DNA from: Salinisphaera japonica YTM-1
Lineage (GTDB): Bacteria > Pseudomonadota > Gammaproteobacteria > Nevskiales > Salinisphaeraceae
Reading direction: 5' to 3'
Assembly (NCBI RefSeq): GCF_003788585.1
Contig: NZ_AYKG01000008.1
Location: forward strand, 1 to 64,000
DNA length: 64,000 nucleotides
The notes under the pieces were generated by a model, which did not search any database, was not told the DNA's origin, and was given only the letters and a program-made list of their open reading frames with translations. Numbering within the stretch: the first letter of the stretch is position 1; every line of letters begins with the position of its first letter. The translations under genes were made by a program, and so were the position numbers. Shown piece by piece: positions 2,058 to 10,341 of the stretch.

Positions 2058-3415
2058 CAGGCGGTGCCACCGATACGGGCCAACAACTCATCGGTCTTGT
2101 CCTCCATCAGCGCACGATCCCCGCGGGATTCCACGTTCAGGCGAATGACCGGCTCGGTGTTGGACTTGCGCAGATTGAATCGCCAGGCGCCGAAATCCAT
2201 CGACAGGCCGTCGACATAATCCACTGTCTGGGCATCGGACTGATACGCGGCTTCCAGATCCGCGACGACCGCGTCGGCATCGCCGACCTTGCGATTGATC
2301 TCGCCCGAGGCCGGAAAGGCCGCGATGCGTTCTTCGACCAGCGTAGACAGGCGCTTGCCGGACTCCGAAACCAGCTGCGCCAGCACCAGCCAGGGCAGAT
2401 GCCCGTTGTCGGCATAGGAAAACGCACGGAAATAATGATGCGCGCTCATTTCGCCGCCATAGAGCGCATCGTTGTCGCGCATGACCTGCTTCATGAATGA
2501 ATGCCCGGATTTGGACTCGACAGCGCGCCCGCCAGCCGCAGCCACCTGATCCAGCGTATTCCAGGTCAGACGCGGGTCGTGGACGATCGCCTCGCCCGGG
2601 TTCATCTCCAACAGCTTGGCCGCGATCAGGCCCACGATGTAATAGCCCTCGATGAAGGCCCCGGTCTCGTCGAAGAAGAAACAGCGATCAAAATCCCCGT
2701 CCCAGGCCACACCGAAATCCGCGCCGCTTATGCGCACCTGCTCGGCGGTGGCCTCTCGGTTTTCCACCAGCAGCGGGTTGGGCACACCGTTGGGCAGCTC
2801 GCCGTCGGGCGTAAACTGCATGCGCACGATCTCGAACGGCAGGCGGGCGGCAAGCTTTTCAGCCACCAGGCCGGCACAGCCGTTGCCCGGATTGGCCACG
2901 ATCTTGAGTGGCTTCATCTCGTCGGGCTTGATCTGGCCGAGCAGAAAATCGATGTAATCATCGCGCTGGTCCAACGGACGGCGCTGACCCGGCTCGGCAA
3001 CGGTCACGACATCGCCGTCATGAACACGTCGCTCGATATCGCCCAGACCGGTATCGGCGGAGATCGGCTTGGCCGCCTCGCGCACGAACTTCAACCCGTT
3101 GTAATCCTTGGGGTTATGACTGGCCGTGACCATGATGCCGCCGTCGGCACCCTGCGAGAACACGCCGTAATAGACCTCTTCGGTGCCACACAGGCCGATA
3201 TCCAATACGTCGGCGCCAGCGCTGTTCAGGCCCTCGATCAGCGCATCGGCCAGCTCGGGGCTGGATAGGCGCATATCCCGGCCCACCACCACCTGCTTGG
3301 CAGACAGCTCACTGGCGAAGGCCGCGCCGATGCGTCGCGCCAGATCGGCGTCCAGTTCGTCGGGCACCTTGGCGCGTACGTCGTAGGCCTTGAAGAAAGG
3401 ATAGTACTGACCCAT
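2057..3415 (-). CDS. algC: Phosphomannomutase/phosphoglucomutase (AlgC/ManB)
   Basis: This 452-residue alpha-D-phosphohexomutase interconverts hexose 6- and 1-phosphates, feeding GDP-mannose, LPS or exopolysaccharide synthesis. The phosphoserine loop TASHNPKDYNGLKF places the active serine at about residue 99, and the metal loop DGDFDRCFFFDE lies near residue 235. ATG 3415 is preceded by AAGGAG; an upstream in-frame start at 3487 would overlap manC and lacks homology. It lies 28 bp downstream of manC and overlaps mtnA by one base, forming a manC-algC-mtnA operon. Its Pseudomonas counterpart algC is a target of the small RNA ErsA, whose locus appears in this window at 6.5-7.5 kb. Confidence 0.93.
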   Translation of the reverse strand: MGQYYPFFKAYDVRAKVPDELDADLARRIGAAFASELSAKQVVVGRDMRLSSPELADALIEGLNSAGADVLDIGLCGTEEVYYGVFSQGADGGIMVTASHNPKDYNGLKFVREAAKPISADTGLGDIERRVHDGDVVTVAEPGQRRPLDQRDDYIDFLLGQIKPDEMKPLKIVANPGNGCAGLVAEKLAARLPFEIVRMQFTPDGELPNGVPNPLLVENREATAEQVRISGADFGVAWDGDFDRCFFFDETGAFIEGYYIVGLIAAKLLEMNPGEAIVHDPRLTWNTLDQVAAAGGRAVESKSGHSFMKQVMRDNDALYGGEMSAHHYFRAFSYADNGHLPWLVLAQLVSESGKRLSTLVEERIAAFPASGEINRKVGDADAVVADLEAAYQSDAQTVDYVDGLSMDFGAWRFNLRKSNTEPVIRLNVESRGDRALMEDKTDELLARIGGTA

Positions 3416-3443
3416 CGGCGGGCTCCTTGGAAACGAGGAAAAC

Positions 3444-4880
3444 TTAAGTCGGTTCGGCGTCGTTGGTGTCGGCACGACCGTAGACATCGTCGTAGCGCAC
3501 GATATCGTCCTCGCCGAGATAGCTGCCTGACTGCACCTCGATCAGATCGAGATCGACCTTGCCCGGGTTTTCCAGGCGATGCACGGCACCCAGCGGTAGA
3601 TACGTGGACTGGTTCTCGGCCAACAGCATGACTTCGTCATCGCGCGTTACCCGTGCCGTACCGCGCACCACCACCCAGTGCTCGGCCCGATGATGATGCG
3701 ACTGCAACGACAGCCGCCCGCCGGGCGTCACGCGGATGTGCTTGACCTGGTAGCGCGGCCCGGCCGCGATCTGCTGATAACTCCCCCAGGGGCGATACGC
3801 CTTGCGGTGTTCGGTGGCCTCGGCGCGGCCGGCCGCCTCCAGGCGTGCCACGAGCTGCTTGATGTCCTGCTCGCGCGAACGATCAGCCACCAGTACGGCG
3901 TCAGCCGTTTCCACCACAACCTGGTTATCGATGCCCAGCGTGACGACGAGCCGGCTCTCGCTGTAGGCCACGGTATCGCGGGTGGCCTCCAGCCAGCAGT
4001 CGCCGATCGTGGTATTGCCCTGTTCATCGTACCCGCGGGCACGGGCGACCGCGCTCCAGCTGCCCAGATCCGACCACGCCGTGGCCAGCTCGACCATCAC
4101 CGCACGATCGGTACGCTCCATCACCGCGTAGTCGATCGAATCCGCGGCCAGCGCTTCGAACGGCTCGGCGGCCAGGCGCACGAAGTCGATATCCCGGGTC
4201 GAGCCGGCAAACGCCTGGGCCACGCCGGCATCGATGTCCGGCGCATAAGCGCCCAACAGCGTCAGGTAATCACGGGCACGAAAGACGAACATCCCGCTGT
4301 TCCAGAAATGATCGGGCGCGTTGGCCAGCGCCCGCGCCTGCTCGGCGCCGGGCTTTTCGACGAACGCATCCACATGGCGCAGGCCATCAGCCTGGCGTTC
4401 GCCGGCCCGGATATAGCCATACCCGGTCTCTGGCCGATCCGGGCTGACGCCGAATAGCGCCAGCTGCCCATGGCGCGTGGCATGACGGGCGCTGGCCAGC
4501 GCGGCCACGAACGCCTGGTTATCGGCCACGGCATGATCGGTGGGCAACAACAACAGCTCGGCGTCCTCGCCGTACTGCTCCAGCGCCAGCCGGGCGGCCG
4601 CGGCAGCCGCGGCGGCCGTACCGCGCGGCGCCGGCTCGAGGATGATCGGCCCGGTATGGCCGGCCTGCTGCATTTGCTCGGCGATCATGAACCGATGGGC
4701 TTCACTGCCCACCGCCATGACCGGGCCCAGCTCATCCAGGCTCGCCAGACGATCCAGGGTCTCCACGAGCAGTGATTTTTCTGTATCGATCAACGACAGA
4801 AACTGCTTCGGCCGGCTCGAGCGCGATGCCGGCCATAGCCGCGTGCCCAGGCCACCGGCCAACAACACCGGAATCAACAT
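3444..4880 (-). CDS. manC: Mannose-1-phosphate guanylyltransferase / mannose-6-phosphate isomerase
   Basis: Bifunctional type II enzyme of about 478 residues. The N-terminal nucleotidyltransferase begins with LLAGGLGTRLWPASR and the conserved RPKQFL, which bind GTP and sugar phosphate. The C-terminal cupin (about residues 345-475) carries RPWGSYQ and the metal-binding LQSHHHRAEHWVVV motif of the isomerase. It makes GDP-mannose from mannose-1-phosphate. ATG 4880 gives the standard MLIPVLLAGG start; a GTG four codons upstream is an alternative. The gene heads an operon with algC and mtnA. Confidence 0.94.
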   Translation of the reverse strand: MLIPVLLAGGLGTRLWPASRSSRPKQFLSLIDTEKSLLVETLDRLASLDELGPVMAVGSEAHRFMIAEQMQQAGHTGPIILEPAPRGTAAAAAAAARLALEQYGEDAELLLLPTDHAVADNQAFVAALASARHATRHGQLALFGVSPDRPETGYGYIRAGERQADGLRHVDAFVEKPGAEQARALANAPDHFWNSGMFVFRARDYLTLLGAYAPDIDAGVAQAFAGSTRDIDFVRLAAEPFEALAADSIDYAVMERTDRAVMVELATAWSDLGSWSAVARARGYDEQGNTTIGDCWLEATRDTVAYSESRLVVTLGIDNQVVVETADAVLVADRSREQDIKQLVARLEAAGRAEATEHRKAYRPWGSYQQIAAGPRYQVKHIRVTPGGRLSLQSHHHRAEHWVVVRGTARVTRDDEVMLLAENQSTYLPLGAVHRLENPGKVDLDLIEVQSGSYLGEDDIVRYDDVYGRADTNDAEPT

Positions 4881-5687: not shown

Positions 5688-5789
5688 CAAGGCTTGCCCG
5701 CTCGAGCGGACAACAGCCACGGACCGCCGGCAATTGCTGCCCTGTGCGTGAGCAATCGCGCGACCCAATTCTTCTGTGAGCCCTGTTTC

Positions 5790-6413
5790 ATGGCCGAACT
5801 CACCGTTCAAGATTTCAAGACCATGCGGTTTCTGCTCTCCGCGCCTCATCTATCCGCCCTGCCGAGCGACGGCGCGCCAGAGATCGCTTTTGCCGGGCGC
5901 TCAAACGCCGGCAAGTCGAGTGCGATCAACACCCTGTGTCAGCAGAAAGCGCTGGCCCGAACCAGCAAGACACCGGGCCGCACCCAGGCCATCAACTTCT
6001 TCGATAACGGGTATCTGCGTTTCGCTGACCTACCCGGCTACGGCTTTGCCCGGGTACCGCCCAAGGTCAAGGCACAATGGGGCGCGCTCATCGAGGGCTA
6101 TCTCGCCAAGCGCGACGCGCTGGCCGGGATCGTTCTGATCATGGATGCGCGCCGGCCGCTGCTGGATTTCGACCAGCAGATGATCCATTGGGGCGGCGAG
6201 TATGGCCTGTCGTTTCATCTGCTGTTGACCAAGGCCGACAAGCTGTCGCGCAACCAACAGGTCAACACCCTGCGTGAGGCAGAAAAAGCGGTCGAGGGCG
6301 CCAGCGTGAGCCTGTTCTCGGCCACCAAGGGCCTTGGCGTGGATGACGCCCGGGCCGCCATCGGCGCCCTGCTGCCCGACACCTCGGACAGCGCAGCCGA
6401 TACGCGTATCTGA
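5790..6413 (+). CDS. engB: Ribosome-biogenesis GTP-binding protein YsxC/EngB
   Basis: This 207-residue TRAFAC GTPase acts in large-subunit assembly and is usually essential. G1 is GRSNAGKSS at about residues 36-44, followed by the TPGRTQAINFF switch, G3 DLPGYGFA, and G4 TKAD. ATG 5790 gives the canonical start MAELTVQDFKTMRF; an in-frame extension back to 5694 shows no similarity. It converges on polA, exactly as yihA and polA do in Escherichia coli, with the small-RNA array lying between them. Confidence 0.95.
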   Translation: MAELTVQDFKTMRFLLSAPHLSALPSDGAPEIAFAGRSNAGKSSAINTLCQQKALARTSKTPGRTQAINFFDNGYLRFADLPGYGFARVPPKVKAQWGALIEGYLAKRDALAGIVLIMDARRPLLDFDQQMIHWGGEYGLSFHLLLTKADKLSRNQQVNTLREAEKAVEGASVSLFSATKGLGVDDARAAIGALLPDTSDSAADTRI

Positions 6414-6554
6414 GCCCGGCATCCGAGCGTGTCGACGCTCATCGACCCAAACCGACCTTTCGTCGGCTGATCAGGGGGTTGGCGTCGACGCCGGCATAAA
6501 GCTGTGCGATAAAGAGCTCAGCTAGAAACGCTCAGGGAACCGGTCGAAACGACC
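6414..6554. other. Spacer between engB and the first small-RNA unit
   Basis: No gene is visible. It contains a perfect GGCGTCGACGCC palindrome near 6480 and a CCGAC/GTCGG hairpin near 6454 without a U tract, so no certain engB terminator can be assigned. Confidence 0.4.
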
Positions 6555-6667
6555 AAAAAAAGAAGCTCCGACGACGGGGGGAACGCCGCCGGAGCTGATT
6601 GTCCGGCTTGGGGGAGACCGAACCGTTACCGCTCAGGGAGAAAAGCGGGCAAGCGCGTTGCTTGCAT
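6555..6667 (-). ncRNA. Tandem C-rich-loop small RNA, copy 1
   Basis: Predicted RNA of about 113 nt transcribed leftward, co-directional with polA. It has four stem-loops in order: SL1 GCAAGC/GCTTGC (6649-6665), SL2 CCGCT/AGCGG (6629-6648) with loop TTTCTCCCTG, SL3 (6601-6623) with a CCCCC loop, and SL4 (6564-6596), a 13-bp stem with CCCCC in its loop followed by TTCTTTTTTT, an intrinsic terminator. Two G-T pairs in SL4 and a differing SL3 retain pairing relative to the other copies. The promoter at 6672-6699 is sigma-E-like. The position between polA and engB matches spf in E. coli and ersA in Pseudomonas. Confidence 0.82.
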
Positions 6668-6671
6668 AGGG

Positions 6672-6699
6672 TAAGACGTCTCACCGGGCGACAAGTTCC
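6672..6699 (-). promoter_or_regulatory. Sigma-E/AlgU-like promoter of small RNA copy 1
   Basis: On the minus strand GGAACTT (6693-6699) is followed after exactly 16 nt by TCTTA (6672-6676), close to the E. coli sigma-E consensus GGAACTT-N16-TCTGA. An AT-rich inverted repeat (CCAGATTTTTT / AAAAAATCTGG, 6698-6722) abuts the -35. The predicted start is near 6667. Confidence 0.68.
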
Positions 6700-6852
6700 A
6701 GATTTTTTCAAAAAAAATCTGGATCCGGCCGATCAGCCGCTTGAACACAGGTGCGAACGCTCGTCGGGGGATGGGCTAATCGCAATATTCAAGGCTGATT
6801 CAGCGCCAGCGTCCTGCTCGAACGCCAGGTGGACGCCGGGGAACGAGCGGGC

Positions 6853-6956
6853 AAAAAAATGCCCCGACGATCGGGGGAAATCGTCAGGGCAGATCCGGTC
6901 AGGGAAAACCGGATTGACCGCTCAGGGAGAAAAGCGGGCAAGCACGTCGCCTGCAT
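6853..6956 (-). ncRNA. Tandem C-rich-loop small RNA, copy 2
   Basis: Predicted RNA of about 104 nt. SL1 GCAGGC/GCTTGC (6938-6954), SL2 CCGCT/AGCGG (6918-6937) with the invariant loop TTTCTCCCTG, SL3 ATCCGGT/ACCGGAT (6893-6914) with loop TTTCCCTG, and SL4 (6860-6891), a 12-bp terminator stem with loop TTCCCCCG followed by seven T. All three distal loops therefore expose a C run. The copy is about 289 bp from copy 1, including a conserved spacer, so the units arose by tandem duplication. Function as an RNA regulator is inferred from structure, promoter and location. Confidence 0.85.
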
Positions 6957-6960
6957 AGGG

Positions 6961-6988
6961 TGAGACGCCGGTTCGAACGACAAGTTCC
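6961..6988 (-). promoter_or_regulatory. Sigma-E/AlgU-like promoter of small RNA copy 2
   Basis: GGAACTT (6982-6988) and TCTCA (6961-6965) on the minus strand are separated by 16 nt. The AT-rich inverted repeat seen at copy 1 is repeated identically just upstream (6987-7011). Confidence 0.68.
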
Positions 6989-7160
6989 AGATTTTTTCAA
7001 AAAAAATCCGGGAGCGGTCGGTGATGGCCTTAGACACAGGTGCGAACGCCCGTCGGGGGATGGGCCGATCGCAATACCCAGGGCCGACTTTAGGGCCGAT
7101 TTCAGGGCCAGGCTAGGGCCAGCGTCTTGCTCGAACACCGGGCCAGCGCAACGAGCGGGC

Positions 7161-7264
7161 AAAAAAATGCCCCGACGATCGGGGGAAATCGTCGGGGCGG
7201 ATCCGGTCGGGGAAACCGGATTGACCGCTCAGGGAGAAAAGCGGGCAGATCTCGCAACCTGCAT
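7161..7264 (-). ncRNA. Tandem C-rich-loop small RNA, copy 3
   Basis: Predicted RNA of about 104 nt, closest to copy 2. A weak 5' stem GCAG/CTGC replaces the longer SL1. SL2 CCGCT/AGCGG keeps the invariant TTTCTCCCTG loop. SL3 ATCCGGT/ACCGGAT has loop TTCCCCG. SL4 (7168-7199) has loop TTCCCCCG and ends in seven T (7161-7167), an intrinsic terminator. Spacing to copy 2 is about 308 bp. The promoter is the best match to the sigma-E consensus in the array. Confidence 0.85.
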
Positions 7265-7268
7265 AAGG

Positions 7269-7296
7269 TCAGACCGGGGGTTCGGCTTGAAGTTCC
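7269..7296 (-). promoter_or_regulatory. Sigma-E/AlgU-like promoter of small RNA copy 3
   Basis: GGAACTT (7290-7296), 16 nt, then TCTGA (7269-7273) on the minus strand: a perfect match to the sigma-E consensus elements. An AT-rich inverted repeat with different flanks (CGAAA / TTTCG) lies about 8 nt upstream. Confidence 0.75.
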
Positions 7297-7374
7297 GCCG
7301 GTTGCGAAATTTTTTGAAAAAAATTTTCGTGCATCAATGGCAGAACGAAAATGCCTGCCGATACAACGGCCTAT

Positions 7375-7494
7375 AAAAGAAAACCCCGGCGGTAGGGGGA
7401 AGTACCGTCGGGGCAAGTATCCGATTTCTTGGGGAAAACCGGATGGGGGTTACCGCTCAGGGAGAAAAGCGGGCAAGCAACCGAATGCTTACGA
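7375..7494 (-). ncRNA. Tandem C-rich-loop small RNA, copy 4
   Basis: Most diverged copy, about 120 nt, nearest to polA. SL1 GTAAGC/GCTTGC (7472-7492) pairs with one G-T. SL2 retains CCGCT/AGCGG and loop TTTCTCCCTG. SL3 is ATCCG...CGGAT with loop TCCCCAAG. SL4 CCCCGACGGTA/TACCGCCGGGG (7384-7413 region) has a CTTCCCCC loop and the T-rich tail TTTTCTTTT. Sequence differs widely from the other copies except in the loops and SL2, which is what selection on loop-mediated pairing would leave. Confidence 0.8.
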
Positions 7495-7498
7495 ACTA

Positions 7499-7526
7499 TC
7501 AGACCGAGCCGTTGGGCAGAGGTTCC
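7499..7526 (-). promoter_or_regulatory. Sigma-E/AlgU-like promoter of small RNA copy 4
   Basis: GGAACCT (7520-7526), 16 nt, TCTGA (7499-7503) on the minus strand. Upstream an imperfect AT-rich inverted repeat (GGCTTTT / AAAAAGCC) directly touches the -35. Confidence 0.68.
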
Positions 7527-7617: not shown

Positions 7618-10317
7618 TCAGTGGGCCTCTTGCCAGTTATCGGCCACACCGGCCTCGGCCAGCAGCGGCACATCCAGCGTGGCAACCGCGCCCATACGCT
7701 GGGCGATTTCCTGTCCCAGCGTCTCGGCCCGATCGGCCGGTACTTCAAAGACCAGTTCGTCGTGCACCTGCATGACCATGCGGATATCGGTTGCCGACTC
7801 GGCAAGCCAGGCATCGATGGCGATCATTGCCTTCTTGATTAGATCCGCGGCCGTGCCCTGAAGCGGGGCGTTGATGGCCGTACGCTCGGCGTACTGCCGG
7901 CGCGAGGCGTTCTTGGCGTTGATTTCCGGCAGATACAGCCGGCGCCCGAACAGGGTCTCGACATAGCCCTGGGCCTTGGCCGCCTTGCGAGTGTTGTCCA
8001 TGAACTTGGCCACGCCGGCAAAGCGCTCGAAAAACTTATTGATATAGGCTCCGGCCTCTTCGCGTGACGTCTCCAGCTGCTTGGCCAGGCCGTATGAGGA
8101 CATGCCATACATCAGCCCGAAGTTGATGGCCTTGGCGGCCCGCCGCTGATCGGCCGTGACGGCCGCCAGCGGCGTGTCGAAGACCTCGGCGGCCGTGGCC
8201 GAGTGGATATCGCGATCCTCGTTGAAGGCCGCCAACAGGCCCGGATCACCCGAGAGATGCGCCATGATGCGCAGCTCGATCTGGGAGTAGTCGACCGCCA
8301 GAATCTTTGTGCCCGGCGTGGCGATGAAGGCCTGACGGATCCGCCGGCCGGCCTCGGTGCGGATCGGGATGTTCTGCAGGTTGGGGTCCGACGAAGACAG
8401 CCGCCCCGTGGCGGCCACGGCCTGGTGATAGCTGGTATGAATCCGCCCGGTGGCCGGGTTGATCAACGTGGGCAGCTTTTCGGCATAGGTCGAGCGCAGC
8501 TTGGACAGCTCGCGCCAGGCCACGATGAGCGCGGGCAGCTCGTGTTGATCGGCCAGCTCGCGCAGCACGTCTTCGGCGGTCGAGGGCGCGCCCTTGGGTG
8601 TCTTGCGGATGACCGGCAGCTCGAGCTGATCGAACAGGATGGTCTTCAACTGCGTGGGCGAGCCCAGGTTGAACTCACTGCCCGCGGCGGTGAAGGCCTC
8701 GGCCTGAATCTCGTCCATGCGCGTGGCCATCTCGCCCGAGACACGAGCCAGCATATCGGCATCGACCAGCACGCCGTTGGCCTCCACGCGGGCCAGCACC
8801 GGCATCAACGGCATCTCGATCTCTTCATAGAGCGCGCGCAGTGAGCCAATCTCTGCCAGGCGGCCGTACAACAGCTCGTGGAGCTGGAGCGTGATATCGG
8901 CATCCTCGGCGGCATACGGCGTGGCTTCTTCCAGCGCCACCTGATTGAAGCCGACCTGCTTGGCGCCCTTGCCGGCCACCTCCTCGAACTTGGTGGTCGT
9001 ACGATTCAGATATTTCTGGGCCAGCGAATCCATGTCGTGGCGCGTGGCCGTGGAATCCAGCACATAGGATTCCAGCATGGTGTCGTGATCGGCCCCGCGC
9101 ACCTGGATGTCGTAACGCGCCAGTACGTTGATGTCGTACTTGATGTGCTGGCCCAGCTTGGCGATGGCCGGGTCTTCCAGCACCGGCTTGATACGTTCGA
9201 GCACGGTGGCCATGGGTAGTTGCTCGGGCGCGCCGATATAATCGTGGGCCACCGGCACATACCAGGCCTCGCCCGGTGTGACCGCGAACGACAGGCCGAC
9301 GAGCCCGGCCTGCATGGCCGAGAGCGCATCGGTTTCGGTATCCACGCAGATCAATGAGGCCGTTTCCAGCCTGGCCATCATGGCCTCGAGCCCGGCTTCG
9401 TCCAGCACGCTCTGGTAGTTCGTCTCGATCGGGGCCGCGGCCACGTTATCGTCGGTCGCGGCCGGTTCGTCCATCTCGTCGAGCAGCTTGTAGAACTCGT
9501 AGCGTCGATAAAGTGCCACCAACGCGTCTTCGTCGACGGGCGTGCGGGTCAGTTTCTGGCCGGCCTCGCCCAGCTCCAGGGCCGTGCGGATCGTGACCAG
9601 ATCCTGGTAGAGCGGCAGATCATCCAGGGCGGCCCGCAGGTTGTCGGCCACCTTGCCGCCGATATCGTCGGCGTGTGCGATCACGCCGGCCAGATCGCCG
9701 TATTTCTCGATCCATTTGGCTGCGGTCTTGGGCCCGACCTTGGGCACGCCGGGCACGTTGTCCGAGGTGTCGCCCACCAGGGCCAGATAATCGGTGATGC
9801 GCTCGGGGGGCACGCCGAACTTCTCGTTCACACGGGCCACGTCCGTGCGCTTGTCCTGCATGGTGTCCAGGAGCACCACACGATCATTGACCAGCTGGGC
9901 CATGTCCTTGTCGCCGGTGACAACGATCACCGGGCCGGGCTCGGCCACCGCCAGCGTGCCGATCACGTCATCGGCCTCGACGCCGTCGACCTGCAGGATC
10001 GGCAGGCCGAGTGCGGTGATCACATCCTGAATGCCCTGAAACTGATCGTTGAGATCCGGCGGCACCGGCGGACGATTGGCCTTGTAATCGGCAAACAGCT
10101 CGTTGCGAAACGTCGGGCCCCGCGGGTCGAAGACCACCACGATGCGATCCGAGTCGTAGTCGCGCAGAAACTTGCGCAGCATGTTGGTCATGCCATAGAT
10201 CGCGCCGGTCGGCTCACCGTTACCGTTGGTGAGCGGGGGCAGCACGTGATACGCGCGATACAGCCAGGACGAGCCGTCGATGAGAATCAGCGGGCCGTGG
10301 GCGTTGGAATCAGGCAT
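7618..10317 (-). CDS. polA: DNA polymerase I
   Basis: Full-length 899-residue repair and Okazaki-processing polymerase with three domains. The 5' nuclease (1 to about 290) has LILIDGSSWLYRAYH and GDKDMAQLV. The proofreading 3'-5' exonuclease begins with CVDTETDALSAM, keeping the metal-binding D and E. The polymerase has motif A DYSQIELRIMAHLSGD, the O-helix RRAAKAINFGLMYG and motif C VHDELVFEVP. ATG 10317 is preferred (MPDSNAHGPLILIDG); a TTG eight codons upstream is possible and neither has a strong ribosome site. It converges on engB, with the small-RNA array downstream; no polA terminator is obvious. Confidence 0.96.
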   Translation of the reverse strand: MPDSNAHGPLILIDGSSWLYRAYHVLPPLTNGNGEPTGAIYGMTNMLRKFLRDYDSDRIVVVFDPRGPTFRNELFADYKANRPPVPPDLNDQFQGIQDVITALGLPILQVDGVEADDVIGTLAVAEPGPVIVVTGDKDMAQLVNDRVVLLDTMQDKRTDVARVNEKFGVPPERITDYLALVGDTSDNVPGVPKVGPKTAAKWIEKYGDLAGVIAHADDIGGKVADNLRAALDDLPLYQDLVTIRTALELGEAGQKLTRTPVDEDALVALYRRYEFYKLLDEMDEPAATDDNVAAAPIETNYQSVLDEAGLEAMMARLETASLICVDTETDALSAMQAGLVGLSFAVTPGEAWYVPVAHDYIGAPEQLPMATVLERIKPVLEDPAIAKLGQHIKYDINVLARYDIQVRGADHDTMLESYVLDSTATRHDMDSLAQKYLNRTTTKFEEVAGKGAKQVGFNQVALEEATPYAAEDADITLQLHELLYGRLAEIGSLRALYEEIEMPLMPVLARVEANGVLVDADMLARVSGEMATRMDEIQAEAFTAAGSEFNLGSPTQLKTILFDQLELPVIRKTPKGAPSTAEDVLRELADQHELPALIVAWRELSKLRSTYAEKLPTLINPATGRIHTSYHQAVAATGRLSSSDPNLQNIPIRTEAGRRIRQAFIATPGTKILAVDYSQIELRIMAHLSGDPGLLAAFNEDRDIHSATAAEVFDTPLAAVTADQRRAAKAINFGLMYGMSSYGLAKQLETSREEAGAYINKFFERFAGVAKFMDNTRKAAKAQGYVETLFGRRLYLPEINAKNASRRQYAERTAINAPLQGTAADLIKKAMIAIDAWLAESATDIRMVMQVHDELVFEVPADRAETLGQEIAQRMGAVATLDVPLLAEAGVADNWQEAH

Positions 10318-10341
10318 GACAAAGGCATCGTCGGCAAGCAA

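Follow-up and report, generated by a model that had tools for sequence, protein, structure and literature searches.

A tandem array of putative sigmaE-driven small RNA genes between polA and engB in Salinisphaera japonica

The window analyzed here, a 64,000-nt stretch of Salinisphaera japonica YTM-1 (positions 1 to 64,000 of contig NZ_AYKG01000008.1, assembly GCF_003788585.1), carries four tandem small RNA (sRNA) units on the minus strand at 6555-7526, between polA and engB, with a spacing of 228-307 nt. We consider it fairly probable that these are four sigmaE-driven sRNA genes that were amplified from an old polA-engB sRNA and repress envelope proteins. The evidence comes from the fold and covariation of the units, the promoter-like element in front of each, their relatives across the Gammaproteobacteria, and the genes whose translation starts match the conserved loop. 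Genomes and loci are designated by G and L numbers where they need to be told apart.

Structure, covariation, and promoters of the four units

Each unit consists of a first stem-loop (SL1), a second stem-loop (SL2) with the loop UUUCUCCCUG, a third (SL3), and a terminator hairpin (SL4), the last two both having C-run loops. The 21-mer CCCGCTTTTCTCCCTGAGCGG has four exact minus-strand matches in the window, starting at 6629, 6918, 7225, and 7453, and none in 100 window shuffles, even with three mismatches permitted. Similarly, the SL2 core CTTTTCTCCCTGAG is found four times in the whole 3.26-Mb genome, always within the polA-engB array. Folding of the four RNAs gave z-scores of -4.7, -6.3, -6.7, and -3.5, and no shuffle folded equally well; for unit 3, the trimmed stretch has a minimum-energy fold in which an alternative takes the place of SL1. 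Motif matches, folds, and shuffles thus bear out the initial annotation, which had described four tandem minus-strand units with an invariant SL2 loop and C-rich SL3 and SL4 loops and had proposed that each copy be folded. It had placed the array at 6555-7494; this location stands, but each gene starts further upstream, and with its promoters the array reaches 7526. The intrinsic terminator that it had assigned to every unit was recovered by a terminator scan, as a final hairpin plus T-run, for units 2, 3, and 4, whereas in unit 1 the stem is mismatched and the broken T tail reads TTTTCTTTT (by eye). The features are as follows.

7499..7526, minus strand: unit 1 predicted promoter, sigmaE-type; -35 GGAACCT at 7526-7520, 16-nt spacer, -10 TCTGA at 7503-7499
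7375..7493, minus strand: unit 1 sRNA, 5' end estimated (fold, covariation)
Unit 1 hairpins, minus strand: SL1 ~7492-7473, SL2 7472-7453, SL3 ~7444-7419, SL4/terminator ~7414-7375
7269..7296, minus strand: unit 2 predicted promoter, GGAACTT-16-TCTGA
7161..7262, minus strand: unit 2 sRNA, 5' end estimated (fold, terminator scan)
Unit 2 hairpins, minus strand: SL1 7262-7245, SL2 7244-7225, C-rich SL3, terminator hairpin 7198-7169 plus T-run
6961..6988, minus strand: unit 3 predicted promoter, GGAACTT-16-TCTCA
6853..6954, minus strand: unit 3 sRNA, 5' end estimated (fold, terminator scan)
Unit 3 hairpins, minus strand: SL1 6954-6938, SL2 6937-6918, C-rich SL3, terminator hairpin 6891-6860 plus T-run
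6672..6699, minus strand: unit 4 predicted promoter, GGAACTT-16-TCTTA
6555..6665, minus strand: unit 4 sRNA, 5' end estimated (fold, terminator scan)
Unit 4 hairpins, minus strand: SL1 6665-6649, SL2 6648-6629, C-rich SL3, terminator hairpin 6596-6564 plus T-run
7618..10341, minus strand: polA, upstream flank, a conserved neighbour and not part of the RNA genes (Pfam)
5694..6413, plus strand: engB (yihA/ysxC), convergent downstream flank, a conserved neighbour (Pfam)

Significant covariation, whose absence in homologues the initial annotation had named as grounds for refutation, is present. Across 53 units, 20 of the 28 base pairs changed on both sides with 96.7% of cells pairing, none of 500 shuffles reached any of five covariation measures, and pairing fell to 25-47% when the partner was shifted by 1-3 columns. 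Likewise, RNAalifold found both-side changes in 17/19 predicted pairs of alignment A1, which holds 63 of 69 units (69/70 were kept after the spurious motif L036_784 had been removed); in alignment A3, three L046 rows are misplaced and without the terminator's 3' half. The claim that stems vary while pairing is kept holds for SL1, SL3, and SL4, but the SL2 stem is as invariant within the genus as its loop and, because it never varies there, carries no covariation information at that level. GCAAGC, GCAGGC, and GTAAGC do not always stand opposite GCTTGC, as had been claimed, since copy 2 instead pairs GCAGGTT with GATCTGC. The SL2 stem varies only at the order and class level, and there pairing is kept (CCCGCTT/GAGCGGG, CCCGTT/AACGGG, GACCCATC/GATGGGTC, TCCGTCT/GGACGGA). 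The SL2 loop is CTCCCT in 25 of the 26 best class loci, whereas just 10 of 20 weaker loci have it; in order units, this loop was the search motif. At L053, L055, and L057, from order relatives, SL1 has a CTCCCT loop too (by eye), so that all four hairpins have C-rich loops. A protein-coding reading was rejected, as none of the 53 units has a closed ATG or GTG frame of at least 15 codons within its RNA part.

Upstream of each of the four units stand an AT-rich stretch, then GGAACTT or GGAACCT, and, separated from it by 16 nt, TCTGA, TCTCA, or TCTTA, an element (GGAACYT-N16-TCTNA) that we take to fit the sigmaE consensus. The looser pattern GAAC[TC][TAC]-N15-18-TC stands upstream of 57 of the 69 genus and order units, and the same pattern precedes 26 of the 28 best class loci (letter shuffles, 0.57) and 9/20 weaker ones (shuffles, 0.48). 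In addition, an RpoE gene above the NCBIfam cut-off was found in 21/21 genomes, that of S. japonica included, so that at the sequence level the array combines the two marks of an sRNA of the sigmaE regulon, a promoter sequence of this type and an RpoE gene in the genome. Upstream of rpoE itself, the source genome has AGAACTT-16-TCTAT; in a crude scan run without shuffled control, [AC]GAACTT-16-TCTA[TC] was the best or joint-best string before rpoE in the source genome, G003, G005, G009, G010, and G011. The initial annotation had overlooked these promoter sequences, as well as the relation to the Rfam anti-hemB family and the class-wide spread described below.

Past the last unit, at ~6500-6540, the window holds only CCCTGAGC of a stretch that is conserved in other genus genomes. 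In 7 of 13 genus genomes, the last terminator is followed by a common CCCTGAGCAATCA and, ~25 nt on, by TTATG.CA.AGAAAAACC; at L037, L038, L039, L041, L043, L045, and L046, this stretch comes directly after the last unit.

Relatives across the class and relation to named sRNAs

A covariance-model search of the class and Rfam, as the initial annotation had suggested, revealed homologues in many genomes and the relation to anti-hemB and sX13. The model R1, built from 63 units, matched 169 of 369 class genomes at E <=0.01, a count that includes the source genome and three order relatives, while the Rfam model RF02837 (anti-hemB) matched 203 of the 369. The RF02837 cut-off excludes most of these, with 20 genomes above it. 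At all 28 of the 28 best loci outside the genus, the two models marked identical coordinates (compared by eye). Moreover, polA and/or engB lies within ~1.5 kb at 28 of the 30 best loci (two of them from the genus), at 17/20 weaker loci, and at 13/20 loci chosen mostly from RF02837 matches. Of the ten non-adjacent loci in the last two sets, four (L098, L105, L123, and L130) belong to genomes that have another match adjoining polA or engB, L112 lies ~1.2 kb from hemB, and L113 and L117 have two copies each beside smpB; L101, L122, and L126 make up the rest. A phylum sample gave R1 matches in 29/299 genomes at 1e-4, 20 of which belong to the same class, and the nine matches outside the class reached at most 31 bits. 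Covariation, class-wide homologues, synteny, and a promoter sequence and terminator per copy sustain the earlier description of a multicopy regulatory RNA family at polA-engB, although the copies are better taken for an amplification within an existing family than for a new family.

The tandem copies near smpB (L113 ~1630-2000, G300; L117 ~1490-1860, G189) have GAAACTT-type promoters and an adjoining polyketide-cyclase-fold gene (RatA-like), and we read them as relocated pairs. At L051, positions 1361-1438 gave a sub-threshold match to the Xanthomonas sRNA sX9 (35.6 bits; cut-off 44), a few hundred bases from the unit.

Three elements of anti-hemB, also known as Burkholderia RNA 7, recur in the window units: SL2 carrying CUCCCUGaGCGG, the middle hairpin, and the terminator. 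The 81-nt anti-hemB model lacks SL1, whereas the window has SL1 and four tandem copies beside polA, and the array is flanked by polA and engB, not by hemB. The window copies scored 39.6, 37.9, 32.0, and 29.8 bits against RF02837, below its cut-off of 49.5, and in order relatives 3 of 17 matches (13 loci) exceeded that cut-off with 54.8, 51.6, and 51.5 bits. At L115, where RF02837 scored 55.2 bits and R1 gave no match at 1e-4, the gene order is engB-sRNA-hemB, an arrangement that may explain why such an RNA received the name anti-hemB. The RNA is listed as ncS04 in a transcript table of PMC5688073 and appears in tables of detected or known RNAs there and in PMC3521395, in passages that give no function.

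Against RF02232 (sX13), the window copies scored 33.0, 31.2, 27.6, and 24.2 bits (cut-off 50). R1, built from the window copies and their relatives, nonetheless recovered a genuine sX13 beside polA at L104 (R1 E 6.7e-9; RF02232 116.7 bits), and the comparison with sX13 drawn in the initial annotation was therefore apt. Like the window array, sX13 lies downstream of polA; it measures ~115 nt and has C-rich loops, with three stem-loops where the window units have four. Passages of PMC3771888 place it 175 bp downstream of polA, describe it as restricted to Xanthomonadaceae, and raise the question whether further polA loci encode sRNAs. No homology was found to Spot 42 (RF00021), the E. coli sRNA of the polA locus in the same passages, the window match being 16.9 bits at E 2.4 with a cut-off of 80.

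The third named sRNA, ErsA, was retrieved at 47 Pseudomonas loci with a probe sequence from a passage of PMC7565897. RF01719 marks ErsA in P. aeruginosa PA7 with 137.8 bits and is not among the window Rfam matches up to E 5. R1 matches ErsA over its full model length in 46 of the 47 loci, weakly (14.5-23.1 bits; E 7.4e-5 to 0.037 for 368 kb), with a further second place in L168. Upstream of ErsA stand TGAACTT, a spacer, and TCAGA, and its terminator loop is C-rich. As described in passages of PMC7565897, PMC8575079, and PMC5819304, ErsA depends on sigma22 (PMC7565897), lies between polA and engB, and pairs via a U-rich single-stranded domain II (PMC8575079). The window array shares the site and what appears to be a sigmaE/sigma22-type promoter sequence. 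The R1 matches fit distant descent and are no proof of it. A search with CrcZ (RF01675) for Pseudomonas gave weak matches below the cut-off in 2 of 158 genomes.

The window copies are filed under none of RF02837, RF02232, RF00021, and RF01719, because their scores lie below the cut-offs and RF01719 is unmatched. They probably work like anti-hemB and sX13, and both position and model make common descent with these two probable. Since R1 and anti-hemB co-locate, R1 recovers sX13 beside polA, and its weak match to ErsA is in register, the three named sRNAs appear to be branches of a single gene that was tandem-amplified in this genus. RF02837, RF02232, and RF01719 have related positions and are assigned to no clan in the Rfam tables. 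Among the matches listed in the open-access literature, no paper unites anti-hemB, sX13, and ErsA, and one could exist among unlisted papers or outside it.

Convergence on C-rich anti-Shine-Dalgarno hairpins, instead of common descent, could also produce this likeness, and we consider it unlikely. Unrelated sRNAs repeatedly show loops rich in C, the window scores and the ErsA similarity are as low as given above, and sX13 itself has a sub-threshold match with alphaproteobacterial ar14 (28.6 bits). Matches outside the class are weak, and RF02837 found sub-cut-off matches in 4 of 14 control genomes, Thermotoga included, so weak single matches of this model mean little. Nevertheless, convergence does not account well for the common polA/engB position and promoter type, for the order relatives above the anti-hemB cut-off, or for L115, which unites the engB and hemB settings.

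Copy number and paralogue history

An exact 16-mer has 2-6 matches in 12 of 13 genus mates and one in each of two sister-genus genomes; it is missing from G011, whose assembly is 81% complete and also lacks the polA C-terminus. With a relaxed motif, the polA-engB interval holds 4 units in the source genome, 6, 4, 4, 3, 3, 5, 3, 5, 3, 4, 3, and 3 in the other genus genomes, and one each in G014, G015, and G016 of the sister genus. The 12 loci from other families of the order, read up to 1.5 kb after polA, have one unit in nine cases, two in L055 and L056, and three in L057. In a tree of 53 promoter-plus-RNA units, the 16 first or single copies require 2 label changes versus 9.8 in shuffles, and the 13 last copies require 2 versus 9.7, with 0/500 shuffles as low for either class; the last copy of G002 is placed with the first copies, and support for the deep fork is weak (48/96). 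Because first copies group with first copies and last copies mostly with last, the polA-proximal copy looks ancestral in type and the engB-proximal copy looks like an old paralogue, with interior copies apparently multiplying within lineages. That first and last copies are kept as distinct orthologues in the genus points to a division of labour besides dose.

Two further arrays were observed. At L040 ~2900-4190 (G006), units 2 and 3 are ~1.4 kb apart, compared with ~0.2 kb between the other units. At L114 ~1490-2370 (G301, from another family of the class), about five tandem units follow polA, and most of them have a GAACTT- or GAAACTT-type promoter of their own; SL2 has lost its CTCCCT loop in 4/5 units (GCAA in three), while the CTCCCC loop is kept in SL3 (by eye). 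We judge the L114 array to be an independent amplification.

Tandem or multicopy sRNAs such as CcsR1-4 and LhrC are known, and some such sRNAs have C-rich loops. OmrA/B, AbcR1/2, PrrF1/2, the Streptococcus csRNAs, and the Neisseria siblings are likewise tandem or multicopy related sRNAs; all of these belong to other loci and families. In passages of a review of sibling sRNAs (PMC4211561), tandem cases are mostly pairs and polA is not mentioned.

Predicted targets, proposed mechanism, and alternatives

The complement of the SL2 loop is CAGGGAGAAA. A prediction of targets near start codons, also suggested initially, found AGGGAGA 3-10 nt before ATG at 18 places in the source genome, compared with 2 for the reversed pattern. 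Among frames of at least 80 codons there, 10 of 16 AGGGAGA genes looked exported versus 22 of 106 genes with Shine-Dalgarno-like leaders, taken from 464 kb of the source genome (p 0.0011), and 7/16 versus 7/106 encoded lipoproteins (p 0.0004). Compared with other GGAGA leaders of the source genome, exported proteins made up 10/16 versus 4/17 (p 0.027) by a first signal-peptide classifier, which counted flavoprotein-like starts as exported. With a stricter classifier, 32/78 AGGGAGA starts versus 9/53 AAGGAGA starts were exported (p 0.003) and 12/78 versus 0/53 were lipoproteins (p 0.001); these and the later p-values are post hoc, because the classifier was tightened after the first result had been seen. 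The AGGGAGA set comprised 88 sites, all 18 of the source genome and 70 of 139 in five genus mates, and the AAGGAGA controls 70 of 113 sites in G000, G004, and G008. Frames shorter than 60 codons were left out (10/88 and 16/69 sites, respectively), and control L285 gave no frame. After removal of related proteins, with control loci L276 and L279 merged as one gene, exported proteins stood at 29/71 versus 9/50 (p 0.006) and lipoproteins at 10 versus 0 (p 0.004). The genus mates alone, which were not used in forming the idea on the source genome, gave 23/62 exported (p 0.013) and 7/62 lipoproteins (p 0.011) versus the same controls.

Four of the five longest pairings precede genes for exported proteins, namely an outer-membrane efflux protein (L235), a DcaP-type protein (L259), a Ysc84 lipoprotein (L228), and a small lipoprotein (L327); the fifth (L257) does not. 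Overall, the candidate targets include the outer-membrane efflux protein, two DcaP-type proteins, one Ysc84 protein, and one DUF3015 protein. The DUF3015 lipoprotein L232 and its likely G001 orthologue L320 both have CAGGGAGAAC, L320 being similar to L232 by eye, yet cytoplasmic according to the classifier. Action on purine-rich translation starts, as supposed in the initial annotation, is only suggested, by this enrichment of exported proteins among starts that follow the loop complement. We take the enrichment as moderate support for envelope-protein repression; a Shine-Dalgarno bias of exported-protein genes is a possible alternative cause.

We propose that one sRNA of ~100-120 nt is encoded by four tandem genes, each with a sigmaE-type promoter and a terminator, and that the array amplifies an old polA-engB-linked sRNA gene of which anti-hemB, sX13, and probably ErsA would be the known branches. 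Envelope stress would free sigmaE and switch on all copies together. The invariant SL2 loop would then pair with AGGGAGA-type ribosome-binding sites, assisted by the C-rich SL3 and SL4 loops, and translation of the main targets, porins, other outer-membrane proteins, and lipoproteins, would be lowered. Extra copies would increase the amount of sRNA, and copy-specific targets may arise from the divergence in SL1, the linkers, and SL3. MicA, RybB, and MicL of enterics are sigmaE-dependent repressors of envelope proteins. The logic proposed here is similar, an envelope stress sigma factor driving sRNAs that lower porins and lipoproteins, but unlike those sRNAs a single array would supply several copies with anti-Shine-Dalgarno loops.

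Besides the RF02837 matches in control genomes, several observations weigh against this proposal. The strict pattern GGAACTT-N15-17-TCTNA occurs at three places genome-wide, which are units 2, 3, and 4, and its reversed control likewise occurs at three; since the control is equally frequent, the count is no evidence and only the placement is telling. A different string, in some cases a similar one, was best in 12 of the 18 rpoE upstream regions for which a start was found. The array region has no sigma-70-like site, which says little because only 0.3 was expected. Regarding the targets, AGGGAGA is itself Shine-Dalgarno-like, exported genes do not pair significantly further past the 7-mer than other genes do (p 0.24), and a smaller share of them has C at -1 (13/32 versus 24/46). 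Moreover, with the first classifier and the AAGGAGA control, genus members gave 12/28 versus 6/21 exported (p 0.23; 30 versus 30 sites), and the stricter classifier and additional sites were introduced after this null result. Finally, the U-rich single-stranded domain of ErsA is absent in the window units, where hairpin SL2 follows SL1.

Other points of this kind concern sX13, which passages of PMC3771888 describe as constitutive, Hfq-independent, and more abundant under salt, at 37 C, and in minimal medium; its locus L104 also lacks a sigmaE-type (GAACTT) element. The array could accordingly lie outside the sigmaE regulon, constitutive or metabolically controlled, and act broadly on G-rich ribosome sites like sX13, the C-rich loop being suited to many G-rich Shine-Dalgarno sites. 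To this alternative we assign a low probability, given the sigmaE-type element at all four window units and at most genus and order units.

That the RNAs act as decoys, either of the CsrA type or as a sponge for other sRNAs, and do not pair with mRNA appears very unlikely. Several copies with identical loops would suit titrating RNAs, but CsrA-type decoys need GGA motifs in hairpin loops, and the C/U-rich loops of SL2-SL4 contain no GGA (by eye), which led us to reject a CsrA-titrating (CsrB-type) decoy. A reading of the units as mobile or repetitive extragenic palindrome (REP)-like repeats or stacked terminators, prompted by tandem near-copies with inverted repeats and 3-6 copies across the genus, is very improbable, and we reject it on the promoter sequence and terminator in each unit, an SL2 core confined to one genome site, covarying stems, positional orthologues across species, and class homologues that include known transcripts.

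For the wider family, the balance tips slightly toward a joint reading in which anti-hemB, sX13, ErsA, and the present array represent one ancient gammaproteobacterial sRNA gene beside polA-engB, in many lineages under an envelope-stress sigma factor, that silences envelope genes via a CUCCCU anti-Shine-Dalgarno loop and has been multiplied in tandem separately by several lineages (3-6 copies in this genus, about five in G301, two or three in others). Much of the sampled class has sRNA genes beside polA or engB, and the data link three separately named RNAs to a single locus and partly also to a single promoter type. If the reading is true, an sRNA branch of the envelope stress response would be far more widespread than the enteric examples, such sRNAs could be read from genomes by position, and copy number would offer a handle on why sRNA genes multiply. 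The predicted target list is supplied for testing.

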